Origin: an uncultured Polaribacter sp.
GTDB taxonomy: Bacteria > Bacteroidota > Bacteroidia > Flavobacteriales > Flavobacteriaceae
Assembly (NCBI RefSeq): GCF_947497125.1
Contig: NZ_CANMFI010000001.1
Coordinates: forward strand, 310,001-374,000
Reading direction: 5' to 3'
DNA: 64,000 nucleotides
Below are positions 35,956 through 47,309 of the stretch, in pieces. A program made the position numbers and the translations under genes. Within the stretch, counting starts at the first letter, position 1. Each line of letters begins with the position of its first letter. The notes under the pieces were generated by a model. The model did no database searches and was not told where the DNA came from. It saw only the letters and a program-made list of their open reading frames with translations.

Positions 35956-37032
35956 TTGATTTTGAAACATAAAAAATTTTTTTTCTTATTGTTACTTCCT
36001 ACTCTTTTAAATGCACAAGCATTTAGAGGGTATTCGAACGAGTTTTTGTCAATTGGTGTAGATGCTGCTGGTTTAGGAATGAGTAAAAGTGTGGTAGCAA
36101 CCACAAATGATGTAAATTCAACTTACTGGAATCCTGCGGGTTTGGTAGGTATCGAAGACTATCAAGGTTCTTTAATGCATACTTCTTATTTTGCAGGTAT
36201 TGCTAGCTATAATCATGCTGCTTTTGCAATGCCAATAGACAAACAAAGTGCTGTTGGAGTTTCTATTATTCGTTTTGGGGTTGATGATATATTAAATACA
36301 ACAACATTAATTGATAATGATGGAAATATCAATTTTGATAGAATTAGCCTTTTTTCTTCTGTAGATTATGCTTTTAATATTGCTTATGCTAGAAACTTAA
36401 TTTTAAAAGATATTAAGTTTGGTGTCAATACAAAGATCATTAGAAGAATTATAGGCGATTTTGCGTCTTCTTGGGGTTTTGGTTTTGATGTTGGAATTCA
36501 GTTTGAACGTAATTCTTGGAAGTTTGGTGTAATGGCAAGAGATATAACAACTACATTTAATAGTTGGTCTATTAATGAAAATGCTTTTAATACGATTAAA
36601 GATGCTATTCCGGGCGAAAATCAAGAATTACCAGAAACAACAGAACTTACCAAACCTAAAGTACAATTAGGTATTGCCAAATCATGGAATATTGGACGTT
36701 CATTTAATCTTTTATCTGAAGTAAATGCTAATATTCGTTTCACAAAAACTAATGATTTATTTTCATCAGAAGCGTTTAGTATAGATCCTGCAATCGGATT
36801 TCAAATTGACTATGAGTCTCTTGTTTATCTAAGAACAGGCGTTGGTAACTTTCAATATATTACCGATTTTAATGACACAAAATCACTATCATTACAGCCA
36901 AATTTTGGTGTAGGTTTTAATTATAACGGAATTAAAATTGATTATGCTTTAACTAATATAGGAAGTATTGGAAATGCTTTATATTCTAATATTTTCTCTG
37001 TTACAGTAGATTTTAGTTACTTTAGGCAATAA
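35956..37032 (+). CDS. PorV/PorQ-type outer-membrane beta-barrel protein (type IX secretion-related family)
   Basis: Signal peptide, GYSNEFLSIGVDAAGLGMSKSVVATTNDVNSTYWNPAGL motif. Confidence 0.85.
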   Translation: MILKHKKFFFLLLLPTLLNAQAFRGYSNEFLSIGVDAAGLGMSKSVVATTNDVNSTYWNPAGLVGIEDYQGSLMHTSYFAGIASYNHAAFAMPIDKQSAVGVSIIRFGVDDILNTTTLIDNDGNINFDRISLFSSVDYAFNIAYARNLILKDIKFGVNTKIIRRIIGDFASSWGFGFDVGIQFERNSWKFGVMARDITTTFNSWSINENAFNTIKDAIPGENQELPETTELTKPKVQLGIAKSWNIGRSFNLLSEVNANIRFTKTNDLFSSEAFSIDPAIGFQIDYESLVYLRTGVGNFQYITDFNDTKSLSLQPNFGVGFNYNGIKIDYALTNIGSIGNALYSNIFSVTVDFSYFRQ

Positions 37033-37035
37033 TTT

Positions 37036-38217
37036 ATGAATATCAGATCTTTACTATTAATCCTTTGTTTTTTTACTTTTAACTCTATAACAGCACAAGC
37101 TAAGCTTTCTGTTTATTCAGAAATTAGTATCTTAACTGTAGGTCCCGGAGAAGATTTACACGTCGCCTTTGGTCATTCTGCAATTAGAGTTAAAGACCCT
37201 GTATTGAATCTAGATTTAGTTTACAATTATGGTGTTTTTGACTTTGATGCCCCAAACTTTTTAATAAATTTTGCTAATGGAAATATGATTTATAGTCTTG
37301 CTCGCTATGATTTTAAATATTTTTTAGCAAGCTATAAAAACGAAAAACGTTGGGTTAAACAACAAACGTTAAACTTAAATCAACAAGAAAAACAAGCATA
37401 TTTCTTATTTTTAGAAAACAACGCACTCCCAAAAAATAAAAATTATCAGTACGACCCGTATTTTAATAACTGTGCCACCAAACTAAGAGATATTACAACC
37501 TCTATTTTAAAAGAAAAAGTTGTCTTTTTTGATAATAATAAAGCAACAAATACTAGTTTTAGAAAGTTAACAAACAACGAGTTATTATCTAATTCTTGGA
37601 GTTCTTTTGGATTAAATTTAATTGCAGGTACAAAATTAGATAGAAAAACAACCTTAGACGAGCAGTTGTTTTTACCAGATTATGTTTATAAATCGTTTAA
37701 GGAAGCTAAATTATTTCGAAAAAACCAACCAGAAGAATTGGTTAAAAAAGAAACAATCTTATTGAATTTTGAAGAAAAGAAAGCGGAAATAATTTTATTT
37801 AATCCACTATTTTGTTTTACTCTTTTCCTCCTTTTTACAATTTACATTACTTATCAAAATTTAAAAAAGAAGAAAAGATCTACATGGTTCGATTTCATTT
37901 TGTTCTTTATACCTGGTTTAATAGGAAGTATTTTATTGTATTTATGGCTATTTTCTAGCCATTCTACTGCACCTAATAATTTTAATGTTTTTTGGGCTTT
38001 TCCAATAAACCTTATTGTTGCTTTTTTGATGTTAAAAAAAGAAGTTTCTAGATGGATTAAAATGTATGTACTTTTTTTAATAGTTTTTCTGTTCGTTCTT
38101 ATGTTAATTTGGATACAAGAAATACAAGTGTTTCCGTTTGTAATTATACCTTTATTAATATCATTATTAATTAGATATACTTACTTAAAAGGAAATCTAT
38201 TGACCTTTTTTAAGTAA
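37036..38217 (+). CDS. DUF4105 domain-containing membrane protein
   Basis: LSILTVGPGEDLHVAFGHSAIRVKDPVLNLDLVYNYGVFDFDAPNF plus C-terminal TM helices. Confidence 0.88.
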   Translation: MNIRSLLLILCFFTFNSITAQAKLSVYSEISILTVGPGEDLHVAFGHSAIRVKDPVLNLDLVYNYGVFDFDAPNFLINFANGNMIYSLARYDFKYFLASYKNEKRWVKQQTLNLNQQEKQAYFLFLENNALPKNKNYQYDPYFNNCATKLRDITTSILKEKVVFFDNNKATNTSFRKLTNNELLSNSWSSFGLNLIAGTKLDRKTTLDEQLFLPDYVYKSFKEAKLFRKNQPEELVKKETILLNFEEKKAEIILFNPLFCFTLFLLFTIYITYQNLKKKKRSTWFDFILFFIPGLIGSILLYLWLFSSHSTAPNNFNVFWAFPINLIVAFLMLKKEVSRWIKMYVLFLIVFLFVLMLIWIQEIQVFPFVIIPLLISLLIRYTYLKGNLLTFFK

Positions 38218-39579
38218 AACTGTTGTAAATGTTTTAATTAGAATTTTAAAATCTAAGAAAGTTGTTCTTTCCTTAATATAATATAAATCATAGCGTAATT
38301 TTATTTCTTGTTCTTCTACCGAATTTGCATACGGATAATTAACTTGTGCCCAACCTGTTAATCCGGGTCTTATTATGTTTCTAATAGTGTAAAAAGGGAT
38401 TTCTTTTGCCAGTTCTTTTACAAATTCTGGTCTTTCTGGTCTTGGGCCAATAATACTCATATCGCCTTTAATAATATTAAAAAATTGTGGTAATTCATCA
38501 ATTCTTGTATCTCGTAAAAACTTACCAAAATAGGTAATTCGAACATCATTTTTACTTGCCCAAATAGCAGTGCCATTTTCGGCATTTGGCACCATAGTTC
38601 TAAATTTATATATAGTAAATAATTCACCACTCATTCCCATTCTTTTTTGAGTATAAAATAACGGTCCTTTGTTAAAAAATAGATTGCATATAAATACAAT
38701 TGGAGTTACTAATAGCATTACACTTAAGCCAAATAAAGAAGACACTAAATCTAAGGTTCTTAAAATAAAAAGATAAAACCGATTGCTATTATTTTGATTT
38801 AAGCTTATAAACTTATAAAAATTTTCATTTAAATATTCTTTGGGTACTCTTTGGTATATTTCTTCATAAAAATTTTCAAAACTTTTAATTTCAATTCCCT
38901 TCTCAAAAAAGAATAATAAATCTTTATCTATGCTATTTACAATGCTTAAGGGAAAACCACCTGTACAAACTACTATTTCGTAATTATTATGATTGTTAGC
39001 CAAAGTAGAAAGTTTTACTTCTTCAATAGAACTAAATCCCTTAACGTCATTAATTTCTTTATCTGATAAATAGGCTTTTAAATTGTGAATATTGTTTTTG
39101 TTAATCGCTTTAAGAATTGCACTAATTTTATCGGACTTACCTACAAAAATTATATTTTTAAACTTTTCAGGTGAAAAAAACATCCATAAGTAGAGAAAAC
39201 GCCATAAAAATACTGGAATGCTAAGAATTAGAAAAAAGTAAATAATTTGTAATCTATTAGAAGGAAGATCAGGTGTTAAAAATGGGGTAATTACATAAGT
39301 AATTGTTGTAAAGTAAGAAGTTAAAATGATACTTCTAAAAATATCATATCTATTATTTAGTATTTTAGGGTTGTATAATTGAAATACTTCTCCGATGATT
39401 AGGTAATAAATAGTTAATAAAACAGCCCAATAAAAAATATATTGTTTATTAAAATTAAAGTATGTAAAATCTAAATAAGTAAATGAAATATTTAATCCTA
39501 AAAGAATTAATGTGATATCAACAACCCTTAAAAGTGATATTCTTTCGTAAATATTATATTTTTTCTTATTAATATTCAA
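38197..39579 (-). CDS. undecaprenyl-phosphate sugar transferase (polyprenyl glycosylphosphotransferase, WcaJ/WbaP type)
   Basis: N-terminal TMs, FYTQKRMGMSGELFTIYKFRTMVPNAE, DELPQFFNIIKGDMSIIGPRPERPEFV. Confidence 0.95.
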   Translation of the reverse strand: MNINKKKYNIYERISLLRVVDITLILLGLNISFTYLDFTYFNFNKQYIFYWAVLLTIYYLIIGEVFQLYNPKILNNRYDIFRSIILTSYFTTITYVITPFLTPDLPSNRLQIIYFFLILSIPVFLWRFLYLWMFFSPEKFKNIIFVGKSDKISAILKAINKNNIHNLKAYLSDKEINDVKGFSSIEEVKLSTLANNHNNYEIVVCTGGFPLSIVNSIDKDLLFFFEKGIEIKSFENFYEEIYQRVPKEYLNENFYKFISLNQNNSNRFYLFILRTLDLVSSLFGLSVMLLVTPIVFICNLFFNKGPLFYTQKRMGMSGELFTIYKFRTMVPNAENGTAIWASKNDVRITYFGKFLRDTRIDELPQFFNIIKGDMSIIGPRPERPEFVKELAKEIPFYTIRNIIRPGLTGWAQVNYPYANSVEEQEIKLRYDLYYIKERTTFLDFKILIKTFTTVLLKKGQ

Positions 39580-39654: not shown

Positions 39655-40401
39655 CTAAAAAAATAATTTATTAATTACATTACATAAAGTATAGTAACTA
39701 GCTCTAAAGAATGAAAATTTTTCAACTTCATAAAATAATTTAAAATTCCATTTAATCATTTCTATTTTATTATTAGAAATTGAGTTATTAGTTTTGCGAT
39801 AAGAAGCATAAATACCTCTCATTCCAGATGCATGACTATACTTTTTTAAAATAAATAACCATAAACCATAATCTTGTCTTTTTCTTATATTTGGCATATA
39901 TATTTTACCTATAATATCTTTGTTATACATAGCTGTCAGACATCCTATCTTATTAGAGTACAACATTTTTTTATAAGTCATCTTTGAATCACAATATATC
40001 GGTTTTTCAATTTCTATACTATTTGCATTCATAATTTTGTAGGAAGTATATGATAGTGGTAATTTATTATCTAGCATAAATTTTAACTGATGTTCTAGCT
40101 TAGATGGTATCCATAGATCATCACTGTCTAAAAAAGCAATAAAATTACCTTTAGAAAGTTCAATAGCCTTATTTCTAGCTATTGCAGTACCTGAGTTGTT
40201 TTTTAATTGATGAACTTTAATACGTAAATCTTTTTTTGCGTAAGAATTAATTATTTGTAAACTATTATCAGTTGACAAATCATCTACTATAATTAATTCC
40301 CAATTTTTAAATGTTTGATTAACAACACTCTCAATAGTTTCAGCTATAAAATTTTCTGAATTAAAACATGGTGTAATTATAGATACTAAATTGTTTGACA
40401 T
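39655..40401 (-). CDS. glycosyltransferase family 2
   Basis: SIITPCFNSENFIAETIESVVNQTFKNWELIIVDDLSTDNSL, FLDSDD. Confidence 0.95.
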   Translation of the reverse strand: MSNNLVSIITPCFNSENFIAETIESVVNQTFKNWELIIVDDLSTDNSLQIINSYAKKDLRIKVHQLKNNSGTAIARNKAIELSKGNFIAFLDSDDLWIPSKLEHQLKFMLDNKLPLSYTSYKIMNANSIEIEKPIYCDSKMTYKKMLYSNKIGCLTAMYNKDIIGKIYMPNIRKRQDYGLWLFILKKYSHASGMRGIYASYRKTNNSISNNKIEMIKWNFKLFYEVEKFSFFRASYYTLCNVINKLFF

Positions 40402-41724
40402 TTATAAAGTTAAATAAGATTTTATCAACTGTGTTTTACCTGAAACAGCACTTTTTATAGATGTTACTTCTATAAATTCTATATAAAATTCTTCATTTGC
40501 TATGTGCTTTTGAAGTTTCCTTTTAATGTTAGCAAGTATATTATTTTCAAAATTATCAGCAGGTATGTATTCTATTAATATCCCACTTTTATCCTTTTGA
40601 ATTATTTTGAACTGTTTGATTTCTACTATATATTCAAATATGCCAGTGAATGAGTGTACTACCATTTTTCTATTATCTGGTAAAATTACAATATCAGTAT
40701 TTCTACCAACAACCTTTTCTAATAATGGAAAATTATATTTTCTCTTTTTGGGGTAATGTTCTTTGGGTAACTTTATAGCCAAATCTCCTATTTTATACCT
40801 TATTAATGGCATATTGTAATTATCTAACCTCGTTACTACTACATTTCCAATTTCACCATCTTTCACCTCATTATCATTGTCATCTAACAATTCTAAATAA
40901 ACCTGTGGAGAATATTGATACATGTATTTTAAGTCATATTGAAAACCAATTTGAAAACCTTCAGAAGTACCATACATTTCATAAATTTCACATTTTAATG
41001 CTTTTTTAATATTCAATTTATATTTTGATAGCATTGCATCACCAATACCTATAAATCTTGCTATTGAAAGATCTAAATCATTTTCTAAAATATAACTTGC
41101 TATTATATTTACTGAAGAAGGATACCCTATAATTGTATATAATTTATTTTTATTCAGCTTTTTACATATAGTTTGTAACTGTTTTTCTGTTAATGAAAAT
41201 GCCGATATATACATTGTGCCAAAGAATATATCTTTTAATTTTTTTAATAAACTTCTTTTTGGTGAAATTCCTGTTTGTAAAACAGGCATACCAATTTTAT
41301 ATCCACACAATTCCCATAAATGAAATTGAAGAGCTTGAAGTGATGTTAAGTCTTTAATATTCATAAAAACAGTGGTACTCTCTCCTGTAGAACCACTACT
41401 CGATATTTTTGTTGATTTTTCTTTTGAGTTAGAAATCAAAATATTGGGGTTAACCTTTAAATCAGTTTTAGTTAAAATAGGAAATTTAAGTAACATCTCT
41501 TCTATTGTATCGTTATCTGAAAGAAGAATATCTTTATATTTTATTATATTTTCATTGGCAAACTGTAATTTCTTCTTTAAAGCTTTTTTTTGATAATCCT
41601 CTAGATCTTTTTGTGAAAAATCTTTAAATTTTCTCCAAAAACGTAAACTTTTTATAAAGTTGCCTTTAAAAACAATATCTCCAAATGGAAGAATAAACCT
41701 CATTAAAATTAAATTCCTAAGCAT
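40402..41724 (-). CDS. phenylacetate--CoA ligase-like adenylate-forming protein (PaaK/CapK type)
   Basis: KISSSGSTGESTTVFMN, EMYGTSEGFQIGFQY, VVTRLDNYNMPLIRYKIGD. Confidence 0.88.
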   Translation of the reverse strand: MLRNLILMRFILPFGDIVFKGNFIKSLRFWRKFKDFSQKDLEDYQKKALKKKLQFANENIIKYKDILLSDNDTIEEMLLKFPILTKTDLKVNPNILISNSKEKSTKISSSGSTGESTTVFMNIKDLTSLQALQFHLWELCGYKIGMPVLQTGISPKRSLLKKLKDIFFGTMYISAFSLTEKQLQTICKKLNKNKLYTIIGYPSSVNIIASYILENDLDLSIARFIGIGDAMLSKYKLNIKKALKCEIYEMYGTSEGFQIGFQYDLKYMYQYSPQVYLELLDDNDNEVKDGEIGNVVVTRLDNYNMPLIRYKIGDLAIKLPKEHYPKKRKYNFPLLEKVVGRNTDIVILPDNRKMVVHSFTGIFEYIVEIKQFKIIQKDKSGILIEYIPADNFENNILANIKRKLQKHIANEEFYIEFIEVTSIKSAVSGKTQLIKSYLTL

Positions 41725-42736
41725 CCTTTAATATTTTATGCCATTTAGTCTTTAAATTTTTCCATTTAAAGCTTTCTACCTTTTTCCTAGCATTATAAAT
41801 TATTTGCTTGTTTTCATTTTTCAATAAAAGTATAACAGCGTTATAAAACATTTTTGAATTATTTTTTTCTACCAACAGCGCATCTTTTTTATTTTCTAAT
41901 AAGTAAGGAATTCCACCAACATTAGTACTAATTACAGGTAAGCCCAAAGCCATTGCTTCCATTACGCTAACTGGCGTGTTATCAAAGTCTGTCGTATTCA
42001 AAAAAATATCAAAATCTTCAGATTTCTTATGCCATTCTTCTTTTAAAAGTACACCTGTAAATTCGATTGAATCTTCTAAATTATACTTTTTCACTAACGA
42101 TAAACATTGATTATATGAACTATCTACAAAAGGGCCTATCATGCATAATTTTGCGCTTTTGTATTTACTTTTAACCTCTTTAAATACTTTTATGGCTAAC
42201 GTTGGATTGTAAATATGTTTAAAGGCTCTGACCCAAAGTAATTTTGGAGCTAATACGTCTCTTTTCTTAAATTGATATTTTTCAACTTCTAAAATATTGG
42301 GTATTAAATCTGTTATAAAACCATGTTTTTCAAATTCAATTTTTAAATAATTTGATGGAGCAATATTTTTATAAGAGTTTTTAAAAATTAATTTAGAAAG
42401 CCATTTAGAATTAGAAATTCTATACGGTAAGTTACCTCCATGTAAAATTGTAATGTATTTAACTGAATATATTCTTGCCAGTTGTGAAATTATAAATGCA
42501 TAATAAAAATTATATGTGCTATAGGTATCAATTAAAATATAATTCACCTTTCTCTTATTTTTAAAAAAAGAGAATACCATATCTAAGATTCTTAATACTT
42601 TATTTTGTTTAGAAGAGGATTTGTAAACAATATATCCTTCTTTCTCTAAAAGATCAGATAAAACTGTATATGTAGAATTATACTTTGTCTTCTTTGTTAA
42701 ATTATTACCAATATATAGAACTTTTATTTTTTTCAT
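41717..42736 (-). CDS. glycosyltransferase family 4/1
   Basis: PVSVMEAMALGLPVISTNVGGIPYLLENKKDALLVEKNN. Confidence 0.92.
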   Translation of the reverse strand: MKKIKVLYIGNNLTKKTKYNSTYTVLSDLLEKEGYIVYKSSSKQNKVLRILDMVFSFFKNKRKVNYILIDTYSTYNFYYAFIISQLARIYSVKYITILHGGNLPYRISNSKWLSKLIFKNSYKNIAPSNYLKIEFEKHGFITDLIPNILEVEKYQFKKRDVLAPKLLWVRAFKHIYNPTLAIKVFKEVKSKYKSAKLCMIGPFVDSSYNQCLSLVKKYNLEDSIEFTGVLLKEEWHKKSEDFDIFLNTTDFDNTPVSVMEAMALGLPVISTNVGGIPYLLENKKDALLVEKNNSKMFYNAVILLLKNENKQIIYNARKKVESFKWKNLKTKWHKILKDA

Positions 42737-44062
42737 TTAATCTTCGATATTGGTGATTTTGATTAAACTTAAAGCGTAAATAAAGCCTGGCATAGCAATT
42801 CGCATTGCAGAATGGTTTATTGTTAGAAACCATATGAGATAAAAACACCCAATAAATGCTTTTTGAAAATTGTTACTTTTACTCATTATTAATATGGGGA
42901 TCGTTAACAACATAATTAAAAGAGATAAACCAATAAAACCATGCTCTTCGATTAACCTACCTACTTCGTTATGAGAAGTTGTACTTATGTTTTCTGCTAT
43001 CTTTTCTCGTTCAAATTTACCATTTCCAACACCTATACCTAAAGGGTTATTAAAAAAATTAATTACTTGAACTTCAAAAATAGCTATTCTTCCTGTAGAA
43101 ATATCTTTCTTCTGAACGCCTAAAGCATTTTGACCTGCATATCTATTATCTAACATGCCTCCGGTAACTTCAGAAGTGTAAATCCAAATTGCAAATATAA
43201 AAAAGAGTATTATAGATATATATTTTAATAATAATTTACCTGAAATCTTCTTATATAAAAAAAAGAAAAAAAGAAAAAACAGTAAACTAATAACTGCAGT
43301 AAATATACCTCCTCTAGAGAAAGTTAGTAAACCTCTGTAAATGAAATAAGTTAAAATACAAAAATCTAATAACAAAAAACCAGAAAGTTTTTCTTTTGAA
43401 ACAATAAAAATAGTTATAATTACAACACCTAAACCAATAGCAGTAGCTACTTGATTTGGTCCAAACCCTCCTGATGTTTCAAAATTTGCAGAAGTACCAA
43501 ATATTATTTCAGATAATTCTGGAGTTCTAAAATATAGAAATGTAATAGTAGATATTAGAGGTAACAACATAAAAAATAATATGTTGTATAATTCTTTTTT
43601 ACTTACGGGTCTATGATAAAAATATATTGCTGAAATACCCAAAAGAACCGGACCACTTAAATTAAAAACTATAGAGTTTCTTATTGATTGACCTTCTGGC
43701 ACTTGAGTGAAAACTATACCTAATAATAATAGCAATATGTATAAGATATAATGAATTGAAAATTTTTGTTTAAAATGCCCAACAAAAACACCAATCATTA
43801 AAAGAATAATTACGTAGTATTTTCCAGTCTCATAAAAAAAATAACCTTTAGTCATTCTTAAAAACACTTCTGAACCTACAATATATGCGGCAAAAACCCC
43901 AGCTTCTTCATTTATGTTTTTTCTTTTTACTATATAAAATATGAATACTAATATTGAAAAAGAACTATATACTAATGGGAAATAAGAAAATGTAGCCAGA
44001 ATACCGATTAAAATGTGGGCTATTATCCAGTATATTTTTTTATTACTTATTTTATTGTTCAA
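42737..44062 (-). CDS. O-antigen polymerase/ligase-family polytopic protein (Wzy-like)
   Basis: 441 aa, many TMs; GIGVGNGKFE...TTSHNEVGRLIEEHGFIGLSLLI. Confidence 0.85.
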   Translation of the reverse strand: MNNKISNKKIYWIIAHILIGILATFSYFPLVYSSFSILVFIFYIVKRKNINEEAGVFAAYIVGSEVFLRMTKGYFFYETGKYYVIILLMIGVFVGHFKQKFSIHYILYILLLLLGIVFTQVPEGQSIRNSIVFNLSGPVLLGISAIYFYHRPVSKKELYNILFFMLLPLISTITFLYFRTPELSEIIFGTSANFETSGGFGPNQVATAIGLGVVIITIFIVSKEKLSGFLLLDFCILTYFIYRGLLTFSRGGIFTAVISLLFFLFFFFLYKKISGKLLLKYISIILFFIFAIWIYTSEVTGGMLDNRYAGQNALGVQKKDISTGRIAIFEVQVINFFNNPLGIGVGNGKFEREKIAENISTTSHNEVGRLIEEHGFIGLSLLIMLLTIPILIMSKSNNFQKAFIGCFYLIWFLTINHSAMRIAMPGFIYALSLIKITNIED

Positions 44063-45126
44063 GAGGTATAGATTTTTAATAATTTTTTAAAGAATATATC
44101 TTTAGAATATTTTTCAGTTATATTCTTTTGATGATTCTTTCCAAAATAAATTCTTTTTTCTTTTGATAATATTAACTCTTCTAATGCCAATGCTAACTGT
44201 AAACTATTTTCTCTATCTACTATTAATCCAGATTTTTGATGTTTAACGATTTTTTTACATTCGCCAACGTCAGTAACTACGACTGGTAATTTAGCCAAAC
44301 CATATTCTAAAATAGAAATAGGTAAACCTTCATTTTTTGATTGTAAAACACCTATATTAGATTGTAAAAGTATGTTTTTTATGTCTCTTTGTAAATCATA
44401 AATAAAAACATTATAGTCTAACTTATTTGATGTTATAAATTGTTTTATTTTTTTTGAATAATTATCATTATAATCTTTACCAACTAAATGTAACGTCCAA
44501 TTAGGATATTTAGCATAGTTTATATAAAATGCTTTTAATAGATTAATATGGTCTTTTTCAGGTCTTAATGCTGCAAGACAAACAATCTTATTTCCAATTT
44601 TACCCCGTAATATTGTTTTCTTACTAGTATCAACAAATTCAGGAAAATTATTTAGTTTAATTGAATTTTTATGATTTAACTTGTTTAGTGACCACGTATT
44701 TAAATCTTCATTTACACAAATAATTTTACTATAAATAAAACTAAACCATTTTATAAAAATAAATTTCAAACCTTTTAAATTAACATAATCTCCAGTGTGA
44801 TTATGCCAAATAAAATTAACATTTTTAATAAAAAAACTAAAACAAAAAATAAAGAAAATTGAGGTATTATGGGTGTGAATAATTTCAATTTTATGCTCCT
44901 TTACGTATCTCTTTAATTTTTTAATAGCTTTAATTTCGATACTTTTTTTCCTATTCAGGTATATATAACCGACACTCGAATTAATATTTTCTTTTAATTC
45001 CCCTTCAACTCTAGTTACACAAATATGAGAGTCAATCTTTTTTTCTGATAGACCATTTGCAATGTTAACTGCTAATACTTCAGCCCCACCTATACTTAAA
45101 GAATCTATAACTTGTAATACTCTCAT
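44059..45126 (-). CDS. glycosyltransferase family 4
   Basis: VLQVIDSLSIGGAEVLAVNIANGL, GLPISILEYGLAKLPVVVTDVGECKKIV. Confidence 0.92.
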   Translation of the reverse strand: MRVLQVIDSLSIGGAEVLAVNIANGLSEKKIDSHICVTRVEGELKENINSSVGYIYLNRKKSIEIKAIKKLKRYVKEHKIEIIHTHNTSIFFIFCFSFFIKNVNFIWHNHTGDYVNLKGLKFIFIKWFSFIYSKIICVNEDLNTWSLNKLNHKNSIKLNNFPEFVDTSKKTILRGKIGNKIVCLAALRPEKDHINLLKAFYINYAKYPNWTLHLVGKDYNDNYSKKIKQFITSNKLDYNVFIYDLQRDIKNILLQSNIGVLQSKNEGLPISILEYGLAKLPVVVTDVGECKKIVKHQKSGLIVDRENSLQLALALEELILSKEKRIYFGKNHQKNITEKYSKDIFFKKLLKIYTS

Positions 45127-45127
45127 T

Positions 45128-45682
45128 TTAAAATTTAAATAGATCTAAATAAAATATTTCTTCATTTTGATAATATTCTTCTTTTAAAATTGATAATAAA
45201 ATGTTGTCATGATAATCATTATTCATAAAAATACTTTTACGCTCTTTACCCTCTATTACCCAATAACACTTCCTAAATAAGTTTAAAGAAGCTAAATTGT
45301 AATCAATGATGTGAGTATGCAATCGGTTTATGTTTATTTTATTAAATAAAAAAGACATACCTGTTTTTAAAGAGTCTGTACCGATCTTTTTACCCCTAGA
45401 ATTCTTTATAATTTTTATTGCTATTAGTCCACTTTTCGAGATTGAATTTGTGTATTTAAATGAAAAATACCCTAGTTTTAAATTTGTTTCTTTTTCATAA
45501 ATAATAAATCGATAACCAGTACTTAAATTTTTTAAAAACCATTCCTTTTGAGATTCATTAGTTTTTAAAAACTCATTTTTACCTTCCCAATAAGCTAATT
45601 CTTGATTATTAACTAAAGTTAACATGAAATCTATATCATTTTGCTCTAATGCTTTTAAATAAATATTTTTACCTTCTATCAT
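45128..45682 (-). CDS. GNAT-family N-acetyltransferase (RimJ/RimL-like)
   Basis: IYLKALEQNDIDFML, SRGKKIGTDSLKTGMSFLFNKININRLHTHI. Confidence 0.85.
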   Translation of the reverse strand: MIEGKNIYLKALEQNDIDFMLTLVNNQELAYWEGKNEFLKTNESQKEWFLKNLSTGYRFIIYEKETNLKLGYFSFKYTNSISKSGLIAIKIIKNSRGKKIGTDSLKTGMSFLFNKININRLHTHIIDYNLASLNLFRKCYWVIEGKERKSIFMNNDYHDNILLSILKEEYYQNEEIFYLDLFKF

Positions 45683-46101
45683 TGTAATGATTTTATAATA
45701 TTACTCAACTTAATTTGAAAATTCTCTAGTGAATATTGAATAGCAAATTTTGTGAGATTTATTTTTTCTTTGTTTTCTAATAAGTATTTAAATGCTTTTT
45801 TAATTGTTTTTGATAATTCTTCAGCTGTTGGTTCAAAACACAAACCTTTATTTTTAGTATCAATTATATCAGGAACATTGCCTTTATTTGCAGCTAATGG
45901 CAGACAGTTATGAGCCCAAGATTCTGCAATAGGTTTGGGCCAACCTTCCATAACACCTGGCATTATTAGAACATGACATTTTGCTAAAACACTTTGTGCT
46001 TCTTTAAAAGGTAAACCACCATAAAAAGTAATATTGCTTAGTAAATTTAATTCTTTTGCTTTATTATGTATTTCTTCTTTTAAGTGACCATCACCGATCA
46101 A
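45679..46101 (-). pseudogene. glycosyltransferase family 4, 5'-truncated fragment (C-terminal domain only)
   Basis: Begins at the (Q)LIGDGHLKEEI motif that is normally mid-protein in GT4 enzymes; upstream frame hits a stop (TAG) a few codons earlier. Confidence 0.8.
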
Positions 46102-46612
46102 TTGGCAAATATGCTATGTTCGAAGATATATTTACAAGCATTCCTTTATATGCAAAATAAGCAAAGAAACTACTGAAAATTAGTAATTGAATTCCAAATT
46201 TTATCAAGTTTGAAACAATAATAGACATTGGCATAATTACTCTTGGAAAATATACTTTTCCAAAAATAGCCTCATTTTTTTTAAAGGTATCCGAAGTTTC
46301 AGTTAAACAATCTTTAAAATAATTCCATGCAGTTATTCCTGCTAAATTGAATAAAAAAGAAGGTATATGACCCGTTGTAATGCCCGCTATATTATTGAAA
46401 ACTAATGTAAAAATGATAGAGGTAAATAAAGGTTGAATAATATACCAAAGAGGGCCTAATATGGTTTGCTTATACAACGTAACCACATCTCTTTTTACAA
46501 ATAGCATTAAAAGATCTCTATACTGCCAAACTTCTTTTAAGTTTAAATCTAATAAATTGTTTTTTGGCGATATTTCATAAAGCCACTTTTCTTTTTTCAT
46601 TGTGTAATTCAC
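46091..46612 (-). pseudogene. ABC-2 type polysaccharide export permease (Wzm-like), 3'-truncated fragment
   Basis: LNLKEVWQYRDLLMLFVKRDVVTLYKQTILGPLWYIIQPLFTSIIFTLVF N-terminal domain; ends abruptly at ...NIAYLPIDR* (173 aa; such permeases are usually well over 250 aa). Confidence 0.8.
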
Positions 46613-46841: not shown

Positions 46842-47309
46842 ATGAATTTAAAAAATTTAAAAATTATACCATACCAACCAAATCTTGCGAAAGATTTTTA
46901 CAACTTAAATGTCGAATGGCTTAAAAAATACTTTTATGTAGAACCTTATGATGAAAAAGTATTAAGCAATCCTCAGAAATATATTATTGATGAAGGCGGA
47001 TATATTTTTTATGCAACATACAACGATGAAATTATTGGAGTTGCTGCTTATATAAACCAAAAATCATACTTCGAATTAAGTAAAATGGCAATTTCACCCA
47101 AATACCGTGGTTTAAAAATAGGTTTATTTCTAATTAACTTTTGTGTTCAATTTGCTAAAAATAAAGAATGGGAAAGTATTACATTGTATTCTAACACAAA
47201 GTTAGTGCCTGCAATAAACTTATACAAAAAAATAGGTTTTAAAGAAGTACCATTAGAGCAAGAAGCTCATTATAAGCGTTCAGACATTAAAATGATTCTT
47301 AACCTATAA
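46842..47309 (+). CDS. GNAT-family N-acetyltransferase
   Basis: SKMAISPKYRGLKIGLFLINFCVQFAKNKEWESITLYSNTKLVPAINLYKKIGF. Confidence 0.92.
   Translation: MNLKNLKIIPYQPNLAKDFYNLNVEWLKKYFYVEPYDEKVLSNPQKYIIDEGGYIFYATYNDEIIGVAAYINQKSYFELSKMAISPKYRGLKIGLFLINFCVQFAKNKEWESITLYSNTKLVPAINLYKKIGFKEVPLEQEAHYKRSDIKMILNL

Follow-up and report, generated by a model that had tools for sequence, protein, structure and literature searches.

The window, i.e., the whole stretch of 64,000 nucleotides of DNA from an uncultured Polaribacter sp. that was analyzed, carries on its minus strand the remains of a surface-polysaccharide locus in which two truncated genes lie against each other. The features of the locus, from its 5′ edge to its 3′ end, were the following:

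46842..47309, plus strand: GNAT acetyltransferase GNAT155 (155 aa), the marker for the 5′ boundary of this locus in the genus
46091..46600, minus strand: 5′ part of wzm, an ABC-2 polysaccharide export permease, from the alignment to relatives and NF050109
46099..46105, minus strand: putative deletion junction, CCAATTG on the minus strand, from the homology limits of permease and GT4
45679..46104, minus strand: 3′ part of a GT4 glycosyltransferase gene, from PF00534 and full-length homologues
45128..45682, minus strand: GNAT acetyltransferase (184 aa), intact, overlapping the GT4 stop (ATGA), with the same neighbour in genomes G187 and G410
44059..45126, minus strand: GT4 glycosyltransferase (355 aa), intact, matching full-length counterparts
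42737..44062, minus strand: PF04932 membrane protein of the O-antigen ligase / Wzy type (441 aa), intact
41717..42736, minus strand: glycosyltransferase (339 aa), intact
40402..41724, minus strand: CapK/PaaK-like AMP-ligase family protein (440 aa), intact
39655..40401, minus strand: GT2 glycosyltransferase (248 aa)
38197..39579, minus strand: polyprenyl glycosylphosphotransferase (GPT; 460 aa), the initiating enzyme, at the 3′ end of the locus

A sequence-only reading of this DNA had described a truncated permease abutting a truncated GT4 in another frame with a TAG upstream, and this arrangement was confirmed by the reading frames and by the limits of homology. The permease frame ends in ...SSNIAYLPI followed by DR* (TGA at 46093-46091 of the minus strand) and comprises 171 codons, of which ~167, from the likely ATG at 46600 to the PI at 46100, are conserved. 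The gene had been said to run from 46612; the frame stands, and its start was moved to ATG 46600, likelier than GTG 46612 because the relatives begin with M(K)KEKWLFEI. When aligned to 83 relatives, the similarity ended at the Pro-Ile at 46100. The Pro at this site is kept in 83/83 of them, with the continuation (I/L/V/F)-hydrophobic...MG.LGLGM, and the DR* of the window corresponds to codons read through the join. The fragment lacks ~115–120 C-terminal residues, that is, the C-terminal third of the permease. Its identity to the intact permeases of genus-mates was 73–83%, and NF050109 (Wzm/RfbD) matched fragment residues 24-154 with an E-value of 2.4e-10, below the curated cut-off. Since the intact relatives themselves score 65 bits against a cut-off of 380 bits on the curated equivalog models, these proteins appear to form a divergent flavobacterial Wzm branch. 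All permease homologues of more than 55% identity in the first collection measured 281–313 aa, the sole short one being the copy in the window. Similarity to the Wzm-type family was detected in a protein that has neither the full-length membrane domain of ~280–310 aa nor a wzt ATPase gene adjacent to it.

The GT4 frame, HICQLIGDGHLKEE..., starts at QLIGDGHLKEE, is shifted by +1 with respect to wzm and has an in-frame TAG just upstream. The open frame of 144 aa contains the C-terminal ~140 of ~382 residues. PF00534 (Glycos_transf_1) matched it with an E-value of 7.8e-16, and the translation includes the E-x7-E motif EGWPKPIAE of the C-terminal domain of GT4 (GT-B fold) enzymes; the N-terminal acceptor half of that fold (the first ~243 residues) is missing. 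Similarity starts at CAA/TTG (46104-46099), equivalent to residue ~243–245 of the 381–382-aa homologues. Only two close homologues (53–55% identity) were found among 400 genomes of the family, those of G187 and G410. Both are full-length, with 381 and 382 aa (L137:8530-9675 and L138:6332-7480), and GNAT, GT, PF04932 and GT come after each of them in the order of the window. The earlier statement that no single indel restores either protein also held.

Because permease similarity ends at 46100 and GT4 similarity starts at 46104-46101, the join could be placed to within ~5 bases, inside 46100-46104. The word that fits both parents there is up to ~5 bp long; as the closest wzm is only ~83% identical, the exact length of this microhomology is an estimate. 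No insertion-sequence gene lies at the join, which combines short or no homology (~5 bp maximum) with the absence of a mobile element. No long repeat was found near it, the repeats there being short, A/T-rich chance matches, and no break in composition occurs across it, with a GC of 0.28 in both fragments.

The counterpart of this region is complete in G187, where wzm (L177:9899-10774) and GT4 lie on one contig in the same order and on the same strand as in the window. The comparison with related genomes that the sequence-only reading had proposed thus recovered a full-length wzm-wzt-...-GT4 in one cluster. The gene order in G187 is wzm, wzt, GTs, neuA, neuB, neuC, GTs, a putative PIG-L-like protein, a WbqC-like protein and GT4; from GT4 on (L137) it continues with GNAT, GT355, PF04932, GT339 and GPT, and then with the genes that flank the locus in the window. 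The two positions that correspond to the join are separated by ~19 kb in G187, and by ~11 kb in G020 if the 370-aa GT there (24% identical) is the counterpart. Moreover, the distance from GNAT155 to GT355 is 1.7 kb in the window and 14–34 kb in the seven genus-mates (7/7) that carry both markers on one contig. From these three measures, the lost block was estimated at 11–20 kb. The intervening block was therefore found in relatives, exactly in G187 and through flanking markers in the genus-mates. The gene content between wzm-wzt and GT4 varies among relatives. Since they keep the order wzm-wzt-(NeuA/B/C, GTs)-GT4-GNAT-GT-PF04932, the two truncated genes can be read as the ends of one block in a conserved operon-like locus. 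The earlier suggestion that a block with the rest of wzm, the wzt and other genes is missing is supported by the G187 order and the marker distances. Judging from the relatives, this block would have included the wzm C-terminus, wzt, neuA/neuB/neuC (CMP-nonulosonic-acid), several glycosyltransferases and the GT4 N-terminus.

The loci of the relatives resemble the Wzm/Wzt O-polysaccharide loci of Klebsiella (O1/O2 rfb; NF050109/NF050108), with a permease, an ATPase and then genes for sugar precursors and GTs. The window differs from those rfb-type loci in that it lacks wzt and its permease, which matches Wzm over the N-terminal half, breaks off at ~171 codons. The PF04932 protein (42737-44062) is constant in the Wzm/Wzt-type locus, among whose genes no flippase was noticed; its role may be that of an O-antigen ligase and not of a polymerase.

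The state of the locus was then surveyed in the genus (168 genomes), in which 47 of the 167 other genomes gave a wzm match. An open frame of at least 282 aa was present in 45 of these 47, and wzm was decayed in the other two, G567 and G568. In G568:C1 (L213:8820-9222), the join between wzm codons 1-77 and GPT codons 403-460 falls on a single base position. The wzm remnant has a frameshift near codon 23, the last 58 GPT codons are kept and the site is otherwise emptied. This join reads CCTACAGATTAAGA, a sequence that may reflect a short microhomology. In G585:C1, a single-contig genome (L216:10129-11225), neuC is cut at ~codon 211 and lies directly against GPT from ~codon 267; the GPT remnant contains an in-frame stop, and wzm and wzt are intact. 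A GPT remnant, from the gene that closes the locus in the window, is thus the other half of both scars. In G567:C2 (L214:8109-10224), wzm has four in-frame stops and wzt is split into pieces, which shows an exporter in decay through point mutations and frameshifts. Additionally, the polysaccharide locus was absent beside GNAT155 in seven further genus-mates whose flank was inspected (L197-L203) and, given these seven empty sites, it behaves like an accessory module. The wzm′-′GPT join of G568 and the neuC′-′GPT join of G585 resemble that of the window in that the start of one gene runs into the end of another, located downstream in the same locus and in the same orientation. Since the breakpoints differ, the three scars represent independent events. 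G568 differs from the window in having lost essentially the whole locus and in a wzm remnant that is already frameshifted.

Taken together, the full-length pair in G187, the marker distances, the missing pieces that were not found elsewhere and the scars of the genus-mates favor a real deletion. We consider it highly probable (about 0.86) that this genome truly lacks an internal block of a Wzm/Wzt-type surface-polysaccharide locus, removed in a single event of an estimated 11–20 kb. A single illegitimate recombination would have joined wzm at codon ~171 to the downstream GT4 at codon ~243, using no more than ~5 bp of common sequence, with deletion of everything in between. Of the two possibilities left by the sequence-only reading, the real deletion is hence well supported by the collinear relatives, by the negative searches in the own genome and by the genus-mate scars, and the chimeric contig is disfavored.

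An assembly artefact, in which the block is still in the cell and was skipped by the assembler through collapsed strain variation or a chimeric read, is improbable, even though the junction was seen once, in one assembly. O-antigen-type loci do vary between strains and often break assemblies, and the genome is a draft of 17 contigs in which an unassembled piece could lie elsewhere. Nevertheless, the join is collinear inside one locus, with the right order and orientation; the shared word of ~5 bp is too short for an assembler overlap and no useful repeat exists at the join; and the same kind of scar occurs in other genomes, including the single contig of G585. Besides, the assembly is 99.86% complete, and searches across its 17 contigs found none of the missing pieces sought. 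No wzm C-terminus was detected in the genome (best E-value 0.012, unrelated), nor was the GT4 N-terminus. The weak match that the wzm C-terminus gave on contig C4 was to an unrelated membrane protein of 167 aa, encoded in an apparent mre (rod-shape) cluster. The wzt that had been proposed to be sought elsewhere had no orthologue in a protein search of the genome, where the best ABC proteins reached ~33% identity; Wzt orthologues are 53–84% identical between relatives. Wzt_C (PF14524) was also negative in the genome, and was discarded as a probe because the intact Wzt of the relatives gives no match either. The genome encodes a single NeuB, on contig C8, within a different EPS locus of the Wzx type. 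It was rejected as a displaced part of the block, since that locus is complete and separate and has its own Wzx-like flippase, and since the protein shares only 28% identity with the NeuB encoded in the relatives' version of the locus studied here. Tandem near-identical genes for a small (84–85 aa) GIY-YIG-like protein were also noted on G000:C8 (L146:10490-11141).

The short ORFs might instead encode working proteins, a mini-permease and/or a GT4 C-terminal domain that acts alone, linked by translational coupling and under selection. Both frames are free of stops, the frame overlap at 46091-46101 would permit re-initiation at TTG 46101, and the permease fragment is fully conserved, which could mean retained function. 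We regard this as very unlikely, because the permease would operate without its C-terminal third and with no wzt partner in the genome, and the GT4 without its whole N-terminal domain. Furthermore, relatives with the same short ORFs, which according to the sequence-only reading would speak against a deletion, were found in 0/47 of the other wzm-bearing genomes, whose homologues are full-length or visibly decayed. Finally, horizontal transfer does bring genes into surface-polysaccharide loci, and the variable content between wzm-wzt and GT4 would suit an insertion between pre-existing halves in the relatives; yet the relatives examined have full-length versions of both genes, whose wzm C-terminus and GT4 N-terminus could not have been created in frame by an insertion in each lineage, so that an ancestral join has practically no chance and is already refuted by gene structure.

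As for the age of the proposed deletion, the wzm fragment departs from none of the 46 invariant residues and from one of the 76 near-invariant ones, and its divergence from the relatives is no greater than theirs among themselves. The downstream genes, which had been described as intact, are indeed full-length (GNAT 184, GT 355, PF04932 441, GT 339 and GPT 460 aa). With undamaged fragments and full-length genes downstream, the loss is probably recent. The claim that the operon promoter is intact as well fared less well and is weak, as the 11 promoter-like sites that were detected compare with an expectation of 6.8 ± 2.6.

By analogy with known systems, the deletion has probably abolished the export, by an ABC transporter, of a surface polysaccharide containing nonulosonic acid. 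The cell would then lack this glycan or make a truncated form of it, and the remaining downstream genes would have become dispensable or have another role. In Klebsiella, an O-antigen-negative state is predicted for O loci whose wzm or wzt carries an IS insertion (PMC7556023). The window resembles these mutants in its broken exporter gene and in the loss of display to be expected; it differs from them in having no insertion sequence and in a deletion that joins two genes across the estimated 11–20 kb.

The loss of an O-antigen-type locus is already known in kind, and the interest here lies in its repetition within one genus. A literature search on Polaribacter, O-antigen and ABC transporter returned only unrelated genome work. 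At somewhat less than even odds, the locus could have been lost repeatedly and independently within the genus, because losing the exported glycan is often favored, for example under pressure from phages or predators; if so, the scars would amount to a natural series of escapes or simplifications. The junctions show at base level how an export locus is dismantled in marine-type flavobacteria, through internal deletions by which two of its genes are fused, followed by decay. Should this be confirmed, the occurrence of intact, scarred and empty states at one site in one genus would offer a direct test of selection for glycan loss. For annotators, caution is advisable, since both short ORFs resemble clean genes and are nevertheless remnants.

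The 3′ end of the locus is flanked (35956-38217) by a PorV2 gene (NF052325, 2e-126) and a gene for an Lnb-domain protein. PorV2 is a T9SS-associated protein, and its position is only a hint of a possible connection between T9SS and the glycan. A-LPS is linked to T9SS surface anchoring in Porphyromonas gingivalis (PMC9143113, PMC8545088), and the adjacency poses the question of whether the glycan is tied to surface anchoring. The PorV2 / Lnb-domain flank was also seen beside the polysaccharide locus of relatives and, judging by gene lengths, Lnb-like and PorV2-like genes appear almost directly beside GNAT155 in six of the seven empty sites.
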